64,000 nt of DNA, from positions 1 to 64,000 of the forward strand of contig VBOW01000016.1 in the NCBI GenBank assembly GCA_005893275.1. The letters are read 5' to 3'. The notes beneath the pieces were generated by a model that was given only the letters and a program-made list of their open reading frames with translations, did no database searches and was not told the DNA's origin. Each line of letters begins with the position of its first letter. The first letter of the stretch is position 1. This document shows positions 46,496-55,079 of this stretch, in pieces. The position numbers and the translations under genes are program-made. This DNA is from Candidatus Eisenbacteria bacterium. Lineage in GTDB: Bacteria; Eisenbacteria; RBG-16-71-46; SZUA-252.

Positions 46496-47719
46496 ATGCG
46501 GATCGGCGAGACCATCACCGTCGCGCTCGAAGCGCTCCGCGCGAACAAGCTGCGCTCGTTTCTGACCATGCTCGGCATCGTGATCGGGGTGGGGGCGGTG
46601 ATCGCCATGGTGGCGCTCGGTCGGGGGGCGCAGCAATCGGTTCGGGACCGCATCGCCTCCCTTGGAACCACGCTCCTGAGCGTGTTCCCGGCACAGGCGC
46701 GCGGCGCGGGCGGCGTCGCCTCCTCCAGCGAGCGCGCGCCGCTCGCGATCGACGACGCCAAAGCGATCGAGGACCGGTCCACGCTGGTGGCGGCGGTCCA
46801 ACCGGAGATGTCGCGCTCGCTCCAGGTGCAGTACGAGAACCGGAACGTGAATACTTCGATTGTCGGAACGACCGCGAACTATCTCGAGGTCAGGAAGTTC
46901 GCGATCGAATCCGGGCGCATGTTCAGGGGCGCCGAGGACGCGGCGCGCAGGCGGGTCGCGGTGCTCGGGCAGCAGGTTCTCACCGATCTGGGGCTGGGAT
47001 CAGGCGAGGCGCTGGTCGGCGCGGAGGTCCGGATCAACGGAATTCAATTCGAAGTCATCGGCGTGCTCGCGCCGAAAGGCCAGGGCGGGGGGTTCGCGAA
47101 CCCCGACGACCAGGTCTTGGTCCCGATCCAGACGGCACGCTACCGGCTGATCGGGAACGACCGGCTTCGCTCCATCAGCGTCCTGGCCCCCTCGGAGGAC
47201 GACATCCCGGTGACGATGGCGGAGGTCCAGAGGATCCTTCGGCGCGAGCACCGCCTGAGGCCGGGCCAGGATGACGACTTCGTGATCCGCAACCAGGCCG
47301 ATTTCCTGACCACCCTGGGCGAAACCACCCGCGTGTTCACATATTTGCTCGCGGGGATCGCGGCGGTGAGTCTGCTCGTGGGCGGAATCGGAATCATGAA
47401 CATCATGCTCGTTTCGGTGACGGAGCGGACCCGCGAGATCGGCATCCGAAAAGCGCTCGGCGCCACACAAAGAACCATCCTCCTCCAGTTCCTGATCGAG
47501 GCGGTGGTCCTCTGCCTCCTGGGCGGCACGATCGGAATCATCCTCGGAGCGGGCTCCGCGATGATCGCGCGGAGCGCGTTTCAATGGAGCACATCGGTGG
47601 GGGCCTCGTCGGTCGTGATCGCGTTCGTGTTCGCGGCCGCCGTGGGCATTCTCTTCGGGGTCTGGCCGGCCCGACGTGCGGCTTCGTTGGACGCGATGGA
47701 GTCGCTGCGCTACGAATGA
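46496..47719 (+). CDS. MacB-like ABC permease without ATPase domain
   Basis: Predicted 407 residues; ATG one base after the adaptor stop. Its N-terminus (RIGETITVALEALRANKLRS) enters the first membrane helix (FLTMLGIVIGVGAVIAMV). The large periplasmic MacB core domain follows (TANYLEVRKFAIESGRMF), then three C-terminal helices with GGIGIMNIMLVSVTERTREI and GIRKALGAT. Canonical MacB has an N-terminal ATPase of about 230 residues, which is absent here. No ABC ATPase gene lies in or beside this operon, so a partner must be encoded elsewhere. It exports peptides, lipids or macrolide-like compounds by analogy. The 3' end overlaps the convergent kinase gene by 10 bp. Confidence 0.93.
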   Translation: MRIGETITVALEALRANKLRSFLTMLGIVIGVGAVIAMVALGRGAQQSVRDRIASLGTTLLSVFPAQARGAGGVASSSERAPLAIDDAKAIEDRSTLVAAVQPEMSRSLQVQYENRNVNTSIVGTTANYLEVRKFAIESGRMFRGAEDAARRRVAVLGQQVLTDLGLGSGEALVGAEVRINGIQFEVIGVLAPKGQGGGFANPDDQVLVPIQTARYRLIGNDRLRSISVLAPSEDDIPVTMAEVQRILRREHRLRPGQDDDFVIRNQADFLTTLGETTRVFTYLLAGIAAVSLLVGGIGIMNIMLVSVTERTREIGIRKALGATQRTILLQFLIEAVVLCLLGGTIGIILGAGSAMIARSAFQWSTSVGASSVVIAFVFAAAVGILFGVWPARRAASLDAMESLRYE

Positions 47720-50316
47720 TCCCGGTCGCCCATGAGCTCTTTCACAATCCGTACCAGGTCCGCCATTTCGACCGGTTTCGCGACGTGCACGTCGAAGCCG
47801 GCCCGCAGAGCCCGGCTGGCATCCTCCGCGCCTGCGTAGGCGCTGAGGGCGACCGCGGGCGTCGTTCCGCCATGCTCGGCGGAAAGCGAGCGCAGTTTGC
47901 CGATCAGGTCATACCCGCTTTCGCCGGGCATCGCGATGTCGCTGATCAGCAAGTCGGGACGCCGGGAGGCGACCGCCGACAACGCGTCGCGGCAGGAGCT
48001 CACAGTGACAATGTCGGCTCCGCAGCGCGAGAGAACCATCGCGAGCAGCTCCCTCGAGTCGGGATCGTCCTCAACCAGGAGAATCCGCGTTCCACCGAGC
48101 GATTGAATGGAGTGGTCGTCGCCTTTCCCCGCCGGCTCCAAGCTCCCGGAATTCGTCCGACCCTCGATCCCGCGTAGCGCGGGCACCTCAGCGAGCGGCA
48201 ACGTCACAACGAAAACGGCCCCGCCCTCCTCCACTCGATTCGAAGCCGAGACGGTCCCTCGATGGAGATCCACGATGTGCCTCACGATCGCGAGGCCCAA
48301 CCCGAGACCTCCGTGCTTGCGGGTGCCCGAGGAGTCCCTCTGGCGGAAACGGTCGAATACGTAAGGGAGGAATTCCGGATCGATGCCGGGACCGTCGTCC
48401 TCCACTCGGATGGACGCGAAGAAACGCTCTTGCTCGAGGAAGACGGTGACGCGTCCGCCTTCGGGGCTGAACTTGATCGCGTTTGAAAGCAGATTCGAGG
48501 CAACCTGGTGAAGCCGATCCGGATCTCCTAGGACCGGTTTGGTCGGGTGCACAAGCTCCAGACTCAAGACGACGTTCTTGGTCTGAGCCATCGGCCTCAT
48601 CGTGTCGATCGCGCCCTCGACGACCGTGACCAGGTTGACCGCATGGACTTTGAGCTCCAGCCGGCCGACGGCCATTCGGGAAATATCCAGGATGTCCGAG
48701 ATCAGGTGGCTCTGGATCCTCACATTTCGGTTGATCGTTTCCACGGCCCGCGCCGTCGTCGCCGGATCGAGCTGCCCTTCCCGCAGTAAGTTCGCCCAGC
48801 CGGCGATGGCGTTGAGCGGGGTGCGGAGCTCATGCGAGAGCGTGGCGAGGAACTCGTCCTTGAGGCGGTTCGCCTCCTCGGCCTCGCGACGAGCGGCCTG
48901 CTCCCGAGCCAGCGAAGCCCGCGCGTTCTCCGCCCTCTTGTGCTCGGTGATGTCCTGGCCGGTCCCGATCATCCGTATGGGTTTCCCACGCCCGTCCGTG
49001 AGGACGCCTCCCTGATCCAGGAGGACCCGGACGCTGCCGTCCGGCCGAACGATCCGGTGCTCGAAGCTGAAGGCGTGTTTCTCGCGGACGGCGGTGGATA
49101 CCACGGTGCGGGCGTGCTCGCGATCGTCGGGATGGACCCGCTCGAGAAATCCTTCATAGGTAGCGCCGAAGGTGGTCGGGTCGAGCCCGTAGATCGAGCA
49201 GAGCTCATCCGACCACCAGACGACGTTCCGGTCGATGTCCCATTCCCAACTCCCCATCCGCGCGGCCCTCTGAGCTTCGCGAAGACGCGCCTCGCTCTTC
49301 TCCAGTTTCTCCTGGGCCCGCGCACGCTTGGCGACCTGGCTATGAAGCTCCTGATTGGAGATCCAGAGCTGCCCCGTCCGCTCCAGAACCCGCTGCTCCA
49401 GCTCTTCGTTGAGGCGGCGCACGGAATTCTCGATCCGCCGGCGGCCGGTGACCGCAGCGCTCATCGCGAGGATCATGATCGAGACGACGGCCATGAAACC
49501 CTGGAGCAGGAGGAGCGACTCGTTCGGAGGTCTGCCGGAGAAGGGCCCGAACCCTTGGAGCGTGCCTAGGGTGGCGATCGTGGAGAGCAGGGCGATGGCC
49601 GTCGTGGACTCACGCGGTCCGAACCGAAAGGCGACCCAAACCAAAGGCGGGAGACAGAAATATTGCAGGGGGTAACGCGTATCTTCGAAGGGGGTCATGC
49701 CATGGAACACGAACAGCGCGAGCGCGGCCAGCGTGAACAAGAGCAAGCCCGCTTCCACGATCTGCCGCCGTGACCAGAGCGCCTTAGGCTTGAGCCACCA
49801 CAGCACCGCGAGGGGCGCTACCACGAGCGCCCCCGACGCGTCTCCAAGCCACCAAGTCCACCAGATCACCCCGAAGTCCTTCCATGGCGCGAATCCTCCC
49901 AGAGAAAGCGTCGTGACGCCGATCGTAGCGCTCACCGCGGTGCTCACGATCCCCGCCAGGCCCGCGAACTTGAAGATATTATTTGGTTGCTCGAAGACGC
50001 GCCGACCACCGGCGAATCGCTGAACGAGATAGCTCCCGAGAAGCCCTTCCAGCGTGTTCCCGACGCCGATGCCGGCCGATGTCGCCGCGTTCCCCGCGGT
50101 CGTAAGGTTGGCCAAGAAAGCCCCGAGCAGGACGCCGGGCCAGACGCGGTAACCCAGGATGAGGAACGCCGCGAGCGCGATGCCGGTGGGGGGCCAAACC
50201 GCCGTAGCGCTCGCGTTCACGAACGCGAGGCTCAACCCGATCTTTCCCGCGATCAGGTAAACCACGGCGACCGCGAGGCTGGCCACGACGCCCTTGAGCA
50301 ATCGGGGATTCGGCAT
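47710..50316 (-). CDS. MASE1-PAS hybrid sensor histidine kinase with receiver domain
   Basis: Predicted 868 residues, ATG at 50316. Residues 1-290 are a multi-helix MASE1 membrane sensor (AGKIGLSLAFVNASATAVWPP and the tryptophan-rich IWWTWWLGDASGALVV). A coiled segment (RRLNEELEQRVLERTGQL) leads to a PAS/PAC domain at about 345-460 (WEWDIDRNVVWWSDEL, HRIVRPDGSVR). The kinase has H495 (TLSHELRTPLNAI), N-box LLSNAIKF, DDGPGI and [11 protein letters not shown]. The C-terminal receiver has D793 (LLISDIAMPGESGYD) and a VAKP lysine. It could pass phosphate to an unlinked partner. It reads toward the tripartite ABC operon and overlaps it at the 3' ends by 10 bp. Confidence 0.95.
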   Translation of the reverse strand: MPNPRLLKGVVASLAVAVVYLIAGKIGLSLAFVNASATAVWPPTGIALAAFLILGYRVWPGVLLGAFLANLTTAGNAATSAGIGVGNTLEGLLGSYLVQRFAGGRRVFEQPNNIFKFAGLAGIVSTAVSATIGVTTLSLGGFAPWKDFGVIWWTWWLGDASGALVVAPLAVLWWLKPKALWSRRQIVEAGLLLFTLAALALFVFHGMTPFEDTRYPLQYFCLPPLVWVAFRFGPRESTTAIALLSTIATLGTLQGFGPFSGRPPNESLLLLQGFMAVVSIMILAMSAAVTGRRRIENSVRRLNEELEQRVLERTGQLWISNQELHSQVAKRARAQEKLEKSEARLREAQRAARMGSWEWDIDRNVVWWSDELCSIYGLDPTTFGATYEGFLERVHPDDREHARTVVSTAVREKHAFSFEHRIVRPDGSVRVLLDQGGVLTDGRGKPIRMIGTGQDITEHKRAENARASLAREQAARREAEEANRLKDEFLATLSHELRTPLNAIAGWANLLREGQLDPATTARAVETINRNVRIQSHLISDILDISRMAVGRLELKVHAVNLVTVVEGAIDTMRPMAQTKNVVLSLELVHPTKPVLGDPDRLHQVASNLLSNAIKFSPEGGRVTVFLEQERFFASIRVEDDGPGIDPEFLPYVFDRFRQRDSSGTRKHGGLGLGLAIVRHIVDLHRGTVSASNRVEEGGAVFVVTLPLAEVPALRGIEGRTNSGSLEPAGKGDDHSIQSLGGTRILLVEDDPDSRELLAMVLSRCGADIVTVSSCRDALSAVASRRPDLLISDIAMPGESGYDLIGKLRSLSAEHGGTTPAVALSAYAGAEDASRALRAGFDVHVAKPVEMADLVRIVKELMGDRDHS

Positions 50317-50706: not shown

Positions 50707-51126
50707 TCATTCATGATTCGCTCCTCCGTTGCTCGAGGGGCGACTGGTGAGTCGTCGAGCCAAGCCATCGAGGAATCGCTGCGTCCCGAGTCTGACACCT
50801 CGCGCCAACGCCACAGCGGCCCGGACCGGAACTTCCACCTCGTCAAGCAAGGTGTCCGAAAGGCAAGCCGTGCGCTCTCCGATCGATTCGAAGCGATCCA
50901 CCGCGCGTCGCAGCCGTGGGACGACATCACGAATGGATCGCACGAGCTCGCCCGCATCGCGCGCAACGTTCCCGAGCTGATCGATCCACTGTCGGGTTTC
51001 CTCGGCGAGCTTGAAGAATTCGTCCGAGGTCCTTCGAAAATGCCGCATCTCCCGAATGACCGTAATCGCGATGGCAACCACCGCAATTGTTACAATTACA
51101 AAGCAAATCTGGAGAACCGTCGACAT
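50707..51126 (-). CDS. DUF948-like membrane-anchored coiled protein
   Basis: Predicted 139 residues from the ATG at 51126. An upstream in-frame start (51213) adds a basic segment that is unlikely. A single N-terminal membrane helix (VLQICFVIVTIAVVAIAITV) is followed by an amphipathic coiled region (TSDEFFKLAEETRQWIDQLG, VRSIRDVVPRLRRAVDRFE). This is the layout of DUF948 proteins, often associated with YtxH-type general-stress loci. A YtxH gene lies 4.3 kb away. The protein is probably inner-membrane-bound. A large stem ending in a T-rich tract lies in its leader. Confidence 0.72.
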   Translation of the reverse strand: MSTVLQICFVIVTIAVVAIAITVIREMRHFRRTSDEFFKLAEETRQWIDQLGNVARDAGELVRSIRDVVPRLRRAVDRFESIGERTACLSDTLLDEVEVPVRAAVALARGVRLGTQRFLDGLARRLTSRPSSNGGANHE

Positions 51127-51734
51127 CGTTTGCCCCGACTTACCTGATGGGCTCCTGCACTTGAGGAGCGAAGCCGCGCGCCCTCCCGGTGCACGGCTCG
51201 CATTGAGCAACATCGGGGCCAGGAGAGCTGAAGAAAGAAAAGGGGCCCTCCATTAAGGGGAGAGGGTTGGGTGGGGAACCGCCCGGTCCCGGTCGGAAGG
51301 CCAGTGGAGGGCCCCTGGATACATTTTCACGCGAGCAAGGCCGGAGGATCGGACCGAAGACTCTGCCTTTTCGGTCTAGGTCCAGGTCTTTGACGTCCGG
51401 ACCCCCAGCACCTGCTCGCTCGAAACCTCATGAGCGCTCGCCACGCTCGACCGCATCATCTGCCGGCAAGTTACGCAGCAATCGTGCCACCGGCGTTGAG
51501 ACGTAACTCCGCTATTTGCAGTGCCTCACGTGTCGTCACAGGCATCAGGAGCTATGTACGGATTCCTACGCGCTTGTAGAAGCTACAAGGAGACGCCCGG
51601 CCTCGAACGTTTCCGGCGCAACGCGAGCCCTTGGAATGAGCCCGCATCGGTTCCGATCATGAGAGCCGAACACACCGTCTATTTGGTGTAAACTGGCCGT
51701 TCCCGGGGACCCGGAAGAAAAGAGAGATACGGCC
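51127..51734. other. Long divergent region between DUF948-like and glycosyltransferase genes
   Basis: A 608-bp gap, the longest in the window. It contains a terminator-like RNA element (51232-51315), a perfect hairpin CTTGTAG-AAG-CTACAAG (51573-51589), and a weaker inverted pair ACACC/GGTGT (51672-51676, 51685-51689) just ahead of the glycosyltransferase. A 45-codon rightward ORF (51554-51691) has weak codon bias and was not accepted as a gene. The sequence is less GC-rich toward 51500-51700. Confidence 0.5.
51232..51315 (-). ncRNA. Structured leader or small-RNA terminator upstream of the DUF948-like gene
   Basis: On the minus strand the arm GGGGCCCTCCA (51315-51305) pairs perfectly with TGGAGGGCCCC (51252-51242) across a 52-base loop, and the 3' arm runs directly into TTTTCTTTCTT. 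This is a rho-independent terminator shape with an unusually large loop, which itself is GC-rich and contains a GGTT/AACC pair. It sits 116 bp before the DUF948-like ATG on the same strand. It could be an attenuator in that leader or the end of a separate small RNA. I do not recognise a known RNA family. Confidence 0.5.
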
Positions 51735-52919
51735 ATGGAAACCATTGTCGATTTGGAAGGGAGCTCTGCCGCAACGAAGGCCTTCGACAATGGCGGAGCC
51801 GGCTCACACCCTTCGCTTCCAGAGCGGGAAGGGTCGCTCGCGATTGCCCAAGTGGCTCCCCTCTACGAGTCCGTCCCTCCGAAACTTTATGGCGGCACCG
51901 AACGGATCGTCTCGTACCTGACGGAGGAGTTGGTATCGGCGGGGCATGATGTGACGCTCTTCGCGAGCGGCGATTCGAGGACCAAGGCGAGGCTGGTCCC
52001 CGTCCGCCCTCGGTCCCTGCGGCTTGACGAGCACCGCGCGGATCCGCTCGCTCACCATCTGCTCATGCTCGAACGGGTCGTGCAGGAGTCGCGTCGGTTC
52101 GACATCATCCACTTCCACTGCGACTATCTTCATTTCCCGCTCTCGCGGCGGCTCCCCGTTCCCAGCCTCACGACTCTCCACGGCCGTCTGGATCTTGCGG
52201 ACCTGGTTCCTGTCTATCGCGAGTACTCGGACGCGCCTCTCGTGTCCGTTTCGGACGCTCAGCGGACACCGCTTCCATGGGCGAATTGGCAGGCCACGAT
52301 TCACCACGGTCTTCCTTCAAGCTTCGGCGCCGCTCCATCCAAGCCCGGGACCTACCTCGCCTTTCTGGGACGAATCTCCCCCGAAAAGCGGGTCGATCGC
52401 GCGATCGAGATCGCCCGGCGGACCGGCATGGAGATCAAGATTGCCGCCAAGGTCGATGCGGCGGACCGCGTCTATTTCGACGAGGTGATCCGACCGCTCC
52501 TCACCGACCGGAGGGTCGAATTCCTGGGTGAAATAGGAGAAAACGAGAAGATCCCGTTCCTGAGCGAGGCCTATGCCCTGCTTTTCCCGATCGACTGGCC
52601 CGAGCCGTTCGGACTTGTGATGATCGAGGCCATGGCGTGCGGAACCCCGGTGATCGCCTACCGACGCGGCTCCGTTCCCGAGGTGATCGACGACGGCGTG
52701 ACCGGGTACGTTGTGGGATCCATCGGCGAGGCTGTGAGGGCGGTGCAGCGAATCGGCGGCCTGAGCGGCGCTGCCTGCCGCTCCGTTTTCGAGCGGCGGT
52801 TTACTTCGAAGCGAATGGCCCAAGACTACGTGAAGACCTATCGGTCGCTGATCCGCCGGGCGGTCGGTCGCGCCTCGGGGCCGGCGCCTCGCTCGGTCGA
52901 GAGCAGCCGGGCGGCCTAG
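51735..52919 (+). CDS. Glycosyltransferase family 4 protein
   Basis: Predicted 394 residues, ATG at 51735 after GAGAGA. An N-terminal tail of about 35 residues precedes a GT-B fold (IAQVAPLYESVPPKLYGGTE, the loop that binds acceptor or donor phosphates). The donor-site motif is EPFGLVMIEAMACGTPVIA, with the E-x7-E pair, and FLGRISPEKRVDRAIEIARR starts the second Rossmann domain. It is a retaining transferase using a nucleotide sugar, probably on the cytoplasmic face. No other polysaccharide genes are nearby, so its product is unknown. It is convergent with a sigma-54 regulator. Confidence 0.92.
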   Translation: METIVDLEGSSAATKAFDNGGAGSHPSLPEREGSLAIAQVAPLYESVPPKLYGGTERIVSYLTEELVSAGHDVTLFASGDSRTKARLVPVRPRSLRLDEHRADPLAHHLLMLERVVQESRRFDIIHFHCDYLHFPLSRRLPVPSLTTLHGRLDLADLVPVYREYSDAPLVSVSDAQRTPLPWANWQATIHHGLPSSFGAAPSKPGTYLAFLGRISPEKRVDRAIEIARRTGMEIKIAAKVDAADRVYFDEVIRPLLTDRRVEFLGEIGENEKIPFLSEAYALLFPIDWPEPFGLVMIEAMACGTPVIAYRRGSVPEVIDDGVTGYVVGSIGEAVRAVQRIGGLSGAACRSVFERRFTSKRMAQDYVKTYRSLIRRAVGRASGPAPRSVESSRAA

Positions 52920-52929
52920 CGGCGAGCCT

Positions 52930-54279
52930 CTACACCGTCGCGGAGTAGTTGTTCAGGCGGTTATAGATTGTCTTCAGGCTGATGCCCAGGATCTCGGCGG
53001 CCTTCCTCTTGTCACCTCCGAAATGCTCGAGGGTGGCGAGGATGAAATGCCGCTCGATCTCCGCGAGCGACATCCCCACGCGCATCGCGTCGTGGGTGGA
53101 AGCCGCCGCCTGGGGTGCCGGCGCGGCGGGGCCGATCGGGAGGGCATCCATCTCGATAACATCCTCGCTCAGGATGAACGCCCGCCGGATCATGTTCTTG
53201 AGCTCCCGCACATTCCCCGGCCAGCTGTAGGCGGCAAGCCTCTGGAGAGCGGCGGCGCTGAATTTCTTGGAGGCGCCCTCCTCGCGGTTGATCTGAGCCA
53301 GAAAGTGCTCCGCCAGGAGAACGACGTCGTCGCTCCGGTCGCGCAAAGGCGGCAGCACGATCGGAAAAACATTCAGCCGGTAGAGAAGGTCCTCGCGGAA
53401 CTTGCCTTCCTTGACGGCGATCTCGGGGGGCCGGTTGCTCGCGGCGATCACGCGAACGTCCACCGCGATCGGCTCATCCCCGCCGACGCGAATCAGGGTC
53501 CCGGTTTCCAGGACGCGCAGGAGCTTCACCTGGAGCTCGATCGGCATCTCCGTGATTTCGTCGAGGAAAAGCGTCCCGCGCGACACGCGCTCGAAGTATC
53601 CCCGATGGAGCTGTGTCGCCCCGGTGAAGCTGCCCCGCTCGTGGCCGAACAGCTCGCTCTCAATGAGGTTGGCCGGGACCGCGCCGCAATTGACGGGAAG
53701 GAAAGGCTGGCTGCGGCGGCGTCCGAGCTCGTGGATGGTGGCCGCCACTTCTTCCTTTCCAGTGCCGCTCTCGCCAACGAGGAGCACCGTTGCGTCCGTC
53801 GGGGCGACCTTGACGACCAGGTCGTAGACCTTCTGCATGATCGGGGAGTTCCCGATCAGCCGGCCAAAGCGTCCCAGCTCGCGCAGCTCCTCGCGCAAGC
53901 AGCCGATCTCTTGCTTGAGCGCCAGCGTGCGCGAGACGTTCGCCAGCGCGGTCTTGAGCCGACGAATATCGACCGGCTTGGTGAGGTAATCGAGCACCCC
54001 TACGCGGAGCGCCGCCACGGCGGAGTCCACCGACGCGTATCCGGTAATCAAGATGAACTCCGGGCGGGGCGTCGAGTTCATGTCTGGGAGCAGCTCGAGC
54101 CCTTTTCCGTCCGGGAGCATCAGATCGGCGAGCACGACATCGGGCCGCGTCTGCGCGAGCCGATCGCGGGCTTCCGCGAGAGTCGCGGCGGACAGCGTGG
54201 AGAAGCCCTCCTTCTCCACGAGCTCCATCATCGCCGAGAGGCTGTTGGCTTCATCGTCGACGATCAGCGCGATAGGCAT
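52930..54279 (-). CDS. Sigma-54-dependent response regulator with variant GSFTGA loop
   Basis: Predicted 449 residues from the ATG at 54279, eight bases after the partner kinase's stop. It has a receiver domain with D52 (VVLADLMLPDGKG) and K101. The AAA+ domain has Walker A GESGTGKE (169-176), the sigma-54 contact loop GSFTGA (216-221) in place of GAFTGA, Walker B LFLDEITEM, and FREDLLYRL. The C-terminal Fis-type helix-turn-helix is KRKAAEILGISLKTIYNRL. The A-to-S change in the loop is found in some natural activators, so it is likely active. The paired kinase is degenerate (see next entry). Confidence 0.94.
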   Translation of the reverse strand: MPIALIVDDEANSLSAMMELVEKEGFSTLSAATLAEARDRLAQTRPDVVLADLMLPDGKGLELLPDMNSTPRPEFILITGYASVDSAVAALRVGVLDYLTKPVDIRRLKTALANVSRTLALKQEIGCLREELRELGRFGRLIGNSPIMQKVYDLVVKVAPTDATVLLVGESGTGKEEVAATIHELGRRRSQPFLPVNCGAVPANLIESELFGHERGSFTGATQLHRGYFERVSRGTLFLDEITEMPIELQVKLLRVLETGTLIRVGGDEPIAVDVRVIAASNRPPEIAVKEGKFREDLLYRLNVFPIVLPPLRDRSDDVVLLAEHFLAQINREEGASKKFSAAALQRLAAYSWPGNVRELKNMIRRAFILSEDVIEMDALPIGPAAPAPQAAASTHDAMRVGMSLAEIERHFILATLEHFGGDKRKAAEILGISLKTIYNRLNNYSATV

Positions 54280-54287
54280 GACGGTGC

Positions 54288-55079
54288 TCAGGCCCCGGCC
54301 GGGGCCAGAGGGAGCTGGATTTCCAAGCCCGCGGGGCCCCGCCGGCCGCGGGATCTCACTTTGATGCTGCCGCCGTGACGTTCCACCGCGCGCCGCGCCG
54401 CATAGAGACCCCGCTCGACGCCGAGGGCACGGCCCGGCTGGGGCGGGCCGCCCGAGCTGTCGAGAATCGCCGGTTGCGCTCCCGGCGCCGCGCCTGTCAG
54501 CGTGAACAGCGCCTTCCCGCGGCCGGCGGCGAGGGATATGCCCAATTCCCCGCCGTCCGGAAGTCCTTCGAGCGCCGTGAGGAGAATGTGGATCAGAGCG
54601 TGCTTGATCGAGTCTCGATTGCCGTCGACTACGACCGGCGCCTCGGGCAGGCTGAGAAGGACCTGCACTCTCGAGCGGCGGCAATAGGGGTCGAGAAACG
54701 AATGCAGGTCGCGGGCGGTATCGGCAAGGTCGAACCGCTCCCTCGAATCCTCGGTTACCCGCGTCTGGCCCAGCAGGCCATCCAGCATCCGCTCGAGCCG
54801 CCGAATTTCCGAGCCGATGACCTCCACGTAGCGCTCCTGGCGAAGGGACGCATCATCCTTGGATTTACCCTCGATGGTGTTGCGCAGGAGCTCCAAGTAG
54901 AGGATGACCGTGTGAAGAGGAGTTCGAATGTCGTGGGCGGTCACCGCCGACACCCGAGACAGGGCGCGCAGGTGGGCGGCGAGGCGCAAATCGGCTTCGA
55001 GCGCCCGCGTCGTCTCGTCGTCGGCCACCAAGTCCGGATCCAAGACGAACGGGGAACCTTCTAGCATGCCAGGATCCAT
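54288..55079 (-). CDS. Soluble histidine-kinase-like protein with degenerate ATP-binding domain
   Basis: Predicted 263 residues; the start (ATG 55079 or four codons later) is uncertain. The dimerisation helix is recognisable with H49 (VTAHDIRTPLHTVILYLELL). The ATPase region is not: where the N-box Asn should be the sequence reads HALIHILLTALEGL, the G1 DxGxG is replaced by LTGAAPGAQP, and the GLGL lid by GVERGLYAARRAVERHGG. Overall length and end (GLEIQLPL) still match a kinase. No membrane segment exists. It may act as a phosphatase, scaffold or phosphotransfer protein for the sigma-54 regulator encoded next, rather than as a kinase. Confidence 0.85.
   Translation of the reverse strand: MDPGMLEGSPFVLDPDLVADDETTRALEADLRLAAHLRALSRVSAVTAHDIRTPLHTVILYLELLRNTIEGKSKDDASLRQERYVEVIGSEIRRLERMLDGLLGQTRVTEDSRERFDLADTARDLHSFLDPYCRRSRVQVLLSLPEAPVVVDGNRDSIKHALIHILLTALEGLPDGGELGISLAAGRGKALFTLTGAAPGAQPAILDSSGGPPQPGRALGVERGLYAARRAVERHGGSIKVRSRGRRGPAGLEIQLPLAPAGA

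Follow-up and report, generated by a model that had tools for sequence, protein, structure and literature searches.

A lineage-restricted two-module RNA element, probably a sigma-54-linked small RNA, in Candidatus Eisenbacteria

The small RNA (sRNA) Qrr is sigma-54-dependent, and sRNAs with C-rich loops (the CUCCUCCC type and the RsaE type) form a further class with which a new element can be compared. The myxobacterial sRNA Pxr is confined to one lineage and adjoins nla19, the gene of a sigma-54-dependent response regulator, and a separate sigma-54 promoter is predicted for it; it is about 108 nt long, comprises three stem-loops and has multiple paralogues (PMC5568312). CpxQ, derived from the 3' untranslated region (UTR) of cpxP, acts in trans (PMC9438474). 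Here we describe an element in a 64,000-nt stretch of a Candidatus Eisenbacteria genome (contig VBOW01000016.1, positions 1 to 64,000; hereafter the window). It lies on the minus strand, from about 51423 to 51241, and consists of a 5' half, module A (51330–51420), and a 3' half, module B (51241–51316). This RNA element is real, confined to its lineage and absent from earlier catalogues and, judging from its sequence, it is probably a new sRNA of a known functional class. We refer to this genome as G000 and to the relatives carrying module B as G001, G003, G004, G007 and G008. All six belong to one Candidatus Eisenbacteria family of soil bacteria, some being close relatives, and were compared within a set of 47 genomes of the class.

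How does this locus compare with the described systems? Closest in layout is Pxr (PMC5568312): in both cases a small structured RNA, in ours a predicted one, stands beside the gene of a sigma-54-dependent response regulator and has a separate predicted sigma-54 promoter. Pxr differs in its three stem-loops and its paralogues, whereas the Eisenbacteria element is single-copy, has a predicted length of about 230 nt and has no Rfam match. The latter also has an apparent history involving csbD and gene loss, of which the passages of PMC5568312 considered report none for Pxr. GlmY (GlrK/GlrR) and Qrr (LuxO) are similar in control (PMC7602753), but they belong to another phylum and the Rfam search finds no similarity between them and our element. 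Like CpxQ, the conserved 3' hairpin comes after the gene of a stress protein, csbD, in G004 and G007 and could act in trans; unlike CpxQ, the Eisenbacteria RNA outlasts the protein gene and has a conserved 5' module as well. In the manner of the C-rich-loop sRNAs, the invariant C-rich core of module B could mask G-rich ribosome-binding sites, although its sequence is not the same as theirs.

The initial annotation had noticed only the hairpin of module B, namely an exact 11-bp GC stem with a 52-base loop and a T-tract directly after it, 116 bp before the start of a DUF948-like gene and inside a 608-bp intergenic region. These particulars hold. On the minus strand GGGGCCCTCCA (51315–51305) is exactly complementary to TGGAGGGCCCC (51252–51242), and the two arms enclose 52 nt; a further pair outside them, A51316–T51241, extends the perfect stem to 12 bp. 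The T-tract TTTTCTTTCTT (51241–51231, minus strand) lies directly 3' of the stem and gives module B its terminator-like character in G000. The DUF948-like ATG is at 51126, 116 bp from the element, and the intergenic region measures about 606–608 bp. The RNA of module B folds at −37.8 kcal/mol (z −2.1 versus dinucleotide shuffles). When the entire window was scanned for a perfect stem of at least 11 bp, with a loop of at most 60 and then 8 T or more in 11, two sites emerged, hairpin B and one on the minus strand near 9.45 kb; in 20 first-order Markov versions of it the mean number of such sites was 0. The hairpin is real, far beyond chance. The second site (about 9450) is a strong stem (GGGGAGGCTCG) with a T-rich tract and looks like an ordinary terminator.

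Might module B then be an ordinary intrinsic terminator, the content of its long loop being irrelevant? In G000 a strong GC stem is indeed followed at once by a U-tract. But the T-tract is absent from G003, G007 and G008, in G004 module B is closely followed by a terminator-like hairpin distinct from it, and the core of the loop is nearly invariant, with 21 consecutive letters the same throughout. We regard a plain terminator as most improbable.

When the intergenic region was searched in the relatives, two matching blocks were obtained, modules A and B, and the conserved unit exceeds the hairpin first noticed. Module B occurs once in each of the six genomes. Its outer stem varies yet mostly stays paired, and its C-rich core, TGGCCTTCC...GGGCGGTTCCCCACCCAACCC, is nearly invariant. 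The suggestion that the loop has room for a sensor fold is borne out to the extent that the sequence conserved best lies in the loop and not in the stem. Module A, a long rod-like imperfect hairpin of 30 pairs with internal loops, is present once in five of the six (G004 lacks it), and a covariance search with it gave matches in five genomes at E 3e-11 to 2e-18; the corresponding model search with module B (R1) was effectively a sequence search. Over the 179 positions that span modules A and B, G000 and G003 are 92.2% identical. The corresponding DNA identities are 85.0% for the gene of the adjoining response regulator, 76.8% for a divergent glycosyltransferase gene and 69.5% for the DUF948-like gene, and the 200 nt before module A, at 47%, are not alignable. 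In this comparison no other DNA of the locus is conserved as well as A+B. Both modules are probably non-coding, because the differences in their lengths (91, 90, 89, 87 and 88 for A; likewise for B) are not multiples of three; small open reading frames (ORFs) across the element showed no conservation of frame on either strand.

How widely is the element distributed? No credible copy was found in the rest of the 47 genomes. The family members G005 and G006 lack it though their genomes are largely complete, as does the partial genome G002. A 19-letter piece of the core, compared with about 85,000 species, returned three records only, all Candidatus Eisenbacteria. At the gathering threshold Rfam gave no match in the window, and at a permissive threshold the element yielded only a chance-level match to suhB (14 bits versus 41). 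Some weaker candidates were rejected. A core 15-mer in G025 has flanks without similarity; weak model matches in G005, G026, G034 and G030 and a second one in G000 (E 0.1–0.8) were taken as chance; and the weak BLAST matches that the module A motif gave in other contigs are coincidences, lying inside conserved protein-coding sequence (TonB-receptor-like by eye).

What lies between the two modules? In G007 module A is followed by an intact csbD-like ORF (PF05532, E 1.9e-19) and then by module B. G004, without module A, has csbD (E 1.8e-18) and then B. G008 has A, a frameshifted and hence broken csbD, and B; the csbD alignment score of 75 was reached by none of 2000 shuffles. The breaks in G008 could be assembly errors, but the loss in G001, G000 and G003 is independent of that. 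In G001 the spacer between A and B retains a 22-nt match to the start of csbD (p 0.001), while in G000 and G003 the modules stand about 15 nt apart and the genome has no csbD. The remnant in G001 is the main support for the view that csbD was lost in the genus of G000 rather than gained elsewhere. The csbD of G012 had no module B beside it. We tentatively suggest, though we would not call it likely, that a stress mRNA is seen here at successive stages of becoming a regulatory RNA: csbD intact in G007, broken in G008, reduced to a remnant of its start in G001 and, in G000 and G003, gone, leaving A and B alone and more constrained than any neighbouring gene compared. A general-stress protein gene (YflT/DUF1269-like, with weak Pfam scores; L025 3656–4147, L024 7396–7995, L023 4466–4960) ends just before the upstream repeat described below in G007, G004 and G008, whereas G000 and G003 lack it at this position; in G001 the neighbouring general-stress gene appears by eye to be broken, between promoter and module A.

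Modules that flank csbD in G007, and of which B follows csbD in G004, could also be no more than UTR elements of the csbD mRNA, a 5' rod and a 3' stabilizing hairpin, now decaying as functionless relics wherever csbD is gone. Relics, however, should drift like the flanks (47%), whereas A–B surpasses the rest of the locus in conservation (92%) in precisely the two csbD-less genomes G000 and G003. We think this explanation quite unlikely.

Is there a promoter from which the element might be read? A predicted sigma-54 (−24/−12) promoter, TGGCACGATTGCTGC, lies at 51489–51475 on the minus strand. It stands at the 5' end of the element, matches 10 of 11 letters of the consensus TGGCACG-N4-TTGC (tGGcacg/tTGCt in PMC4641369) and would place the transcript start at about 51463–51465. 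All six loci have such a GG-N10-GC site in the same place upstream and on the same strand. It scores 10/11 in G000, G001 and G003 (p 0.004–0.01 versus shuffles) and 9/11 in G004 (p 0.03), and is thus significant in four of the six genomes; the 8/11 sites of G007 and G008 (p about 0.2–0.3) are not significant alone.

Farther upstream, 99 bp from the predicted promoter, an inverted repeat TTGTAGCTTCTACAA (51574–51588) is a candidate enhancer, that is, an activator binding site. It is the sole exact TTGTA-N5-TACAA in the whole of G000; the repeat is rare, a genome having between 0 and 3 exact copies. The repeat stands upstream of the element in all six, at 10/10 letters in three and 9/10 in three (p 0.006 or less), and 67–214 bp from the promoter. 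The candidate activator is an NtrC-type response regulator with a receiver, a sigma-54 AAA+ domain and a Fis-type helix-turn-helix (52930–54279, minus strand), which adjoins the element in 6/6 genomes. Next to it is a histidine kinase gene (54288–55079, minus strand), and similar ORFs stand beside the activator in G003 and G001. RpoN is encoded in eight of the nine family genomes, G000 included. Promoter, repeat and activator would form a coherent regulatory unit.

Four exact repeats were found outside the locus. In two cases, a copy in G008 and a copy in G007, a sigma-54 match of 9/11 lies at 99–110 bp; the other two have none by the strict rule. For 8/11 or better the background rate is 16% per 285 bp and strand. 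The copy in G008 (L055, G008:C243:17544), with its 9/11 site 99 bp downstream, stands ahead of a gene for a predicted secreted protein (MKLYLRLAFAAALLFVFAAPASAQ...). That in G007 (L056, G007:C163:34732) is separated from the element by about 5.5 kb and precedes the gene of a 50-aa membrane protein (MLWTITVLLFLMWLVGMV...), with TGGCATGGAACGTGA near 100 bp downstream, and is possibly a second member of the regulon. On the opposite side of the repeat is the divergent glycosyltransferase gene (51735–52919, plus strand), which possibly shares it. A possible divergent sigma-54-like site toward this gene, CGGCATGCCGTGTGC, is seen in G003 (L053) and a similar one by eye in G001 (L008); none was found in G000. 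Given these possible sites, the repeat may serve both directions.

We consider it fairly likely, from the sequence comparisons above, that the element is a stress sRNA driven by sigma-54, about 230 nt long, with module B at its 3' end. Modules A and B would form the main part of a single conserved RNA encoded on the minus strand. Transcription would start near 51464, activated under a two-component stress signal by the NtrC-type response regulator (52930–54279 is the best candidate) bound at the repeat, 51588–51574. The transcript would fold into rod A and hairpin B and, in G000, end at the T-tract after B. In the relatives the same promoter and flanking elements would carry csbD between A and B; in the lineage of G000 csbD would have gone and the RNA elements would have stayed constrained. 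The working part may be the C-rich core of B, which does not vary. Most simply it would pair in trans with the G-rich ribosome-binding sites of target mRNAs, which a C-rich probe matches trivially, or else bind a protein. No sRNA appears to have been reported in the literature searched for Candidatus Eisenbacteria, and Rfam lacks this one. If the proposal is correct, a phylum that is known chiefly through metagenomes gains an RNA under sigma-54 and two-component control, and comparison of these genomes shows clearly how the non-coding flanks of a stress gene are kept by selection after the gene is lost.

Several observations weigh against a minus-strand sRNA. The first concerns covariation, which is weak: there are six sequences only, and the shuffle control is borderline. 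In module A 92% of cells are paired, falling to 33–50% with shifted partners. Compensatory pairs, changed on both sides, number four in A and two in B. The check for compensatory changes is mixed: a few such pairs were found, more in A than in B, and the sequences are too few for a strong test. With five or six partly closely related sequences the structural covariation of A and B is suggestive, not conclusive.

Which strand is the working one? The plus strand of module B folds at least as stably as the minus strand in all six genomes, and clearly more stably in most, partly because one inner C–A mismatch becomes a U–G pair there. The working molecule might accordingly be plus-strand RNA, a hairpin with a GGAA tetraloop, or the DNA itself, as a G-quadruplex motif (GGGG-N-GGG-TT-GGG-T-GGGG, noted by eye) of four G-runs with short fixed spacers in 6/6 genomes. 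In the window this motif, GGGGAGAGGGTTGGGTGGGG, lies on the plus strand at 51261–51285, opposite the core of B; its TT and T spacers are the fixed ones. On the other hand, module A, the promoter, the order of the elements and csbD, which wherever it occurs is on the equivalent of the window's minus strand, all favour that strand. Module A is more stable on that strand than as its complement in the five genomes that carry it, and in G007 and G008 the outer stem of B has wobble pairs that can form on the minus strand only. We judge a plus-strand or DNA function very unlikely.

The remaining difficulty is posed by G003. Its A–B is nearly identical to that of G000, but it lacks the T-tract and a DUF948-like ATG follows within about 40 nt; the G003 RNA may for these reasons run into the DUF948-like gene. 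Could A and B be a cis-acting leader, the 5' UTR of this gene in the lineage of G000, with B as an attenuator or stability element? The gene (50707–51126, minus strand) does follow B directly and on the same strand in G000 and G003, and read-through is likely in the latter. Yet it adjoins B in these two of the six genomes only. It is about 850 bp away in G001 and 5 kb away in G004, and lies on other contigs in G007 and G008, with the core of B conserved all the same. The conserved linkage that would mark an attenuator or riboswitch was thus not found. Nor did energy folds of the six sequences, a small set, reveal a common alternative fold of the mutually exclusive terminator/anti-terminator kind. 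We hold a cis-acting leader to be unlikely. The initial annotation had offered two roles for the hairpin. A regulated attenuator of the DUF948-like gene is unsupported, because B adjoins the gene in two genomes of six and the T-tract, found only in G000 and G001, is not conserved. We favour instead the other, the end of an unknown small RNA, which fits well with B as the 3' end of a conserved non-coding A+B that has its own predicted sigma-54 promoter.

The DUF948-like label is itself weak. The G000 protein has no Pfam match at E 1e-3, and its orthologues match PF06103 at E 3e-4 and 2e-5, below the curated Pfam cut-off. Downstream of this gene the window holds, at 47710–50316 on the minus strand, a large gene for a MASE1-PAS-histidine kinase-receiver hybrid; a MASE1-like ORF is also seen by eye near the DUF948-like gene in G003 and G004.
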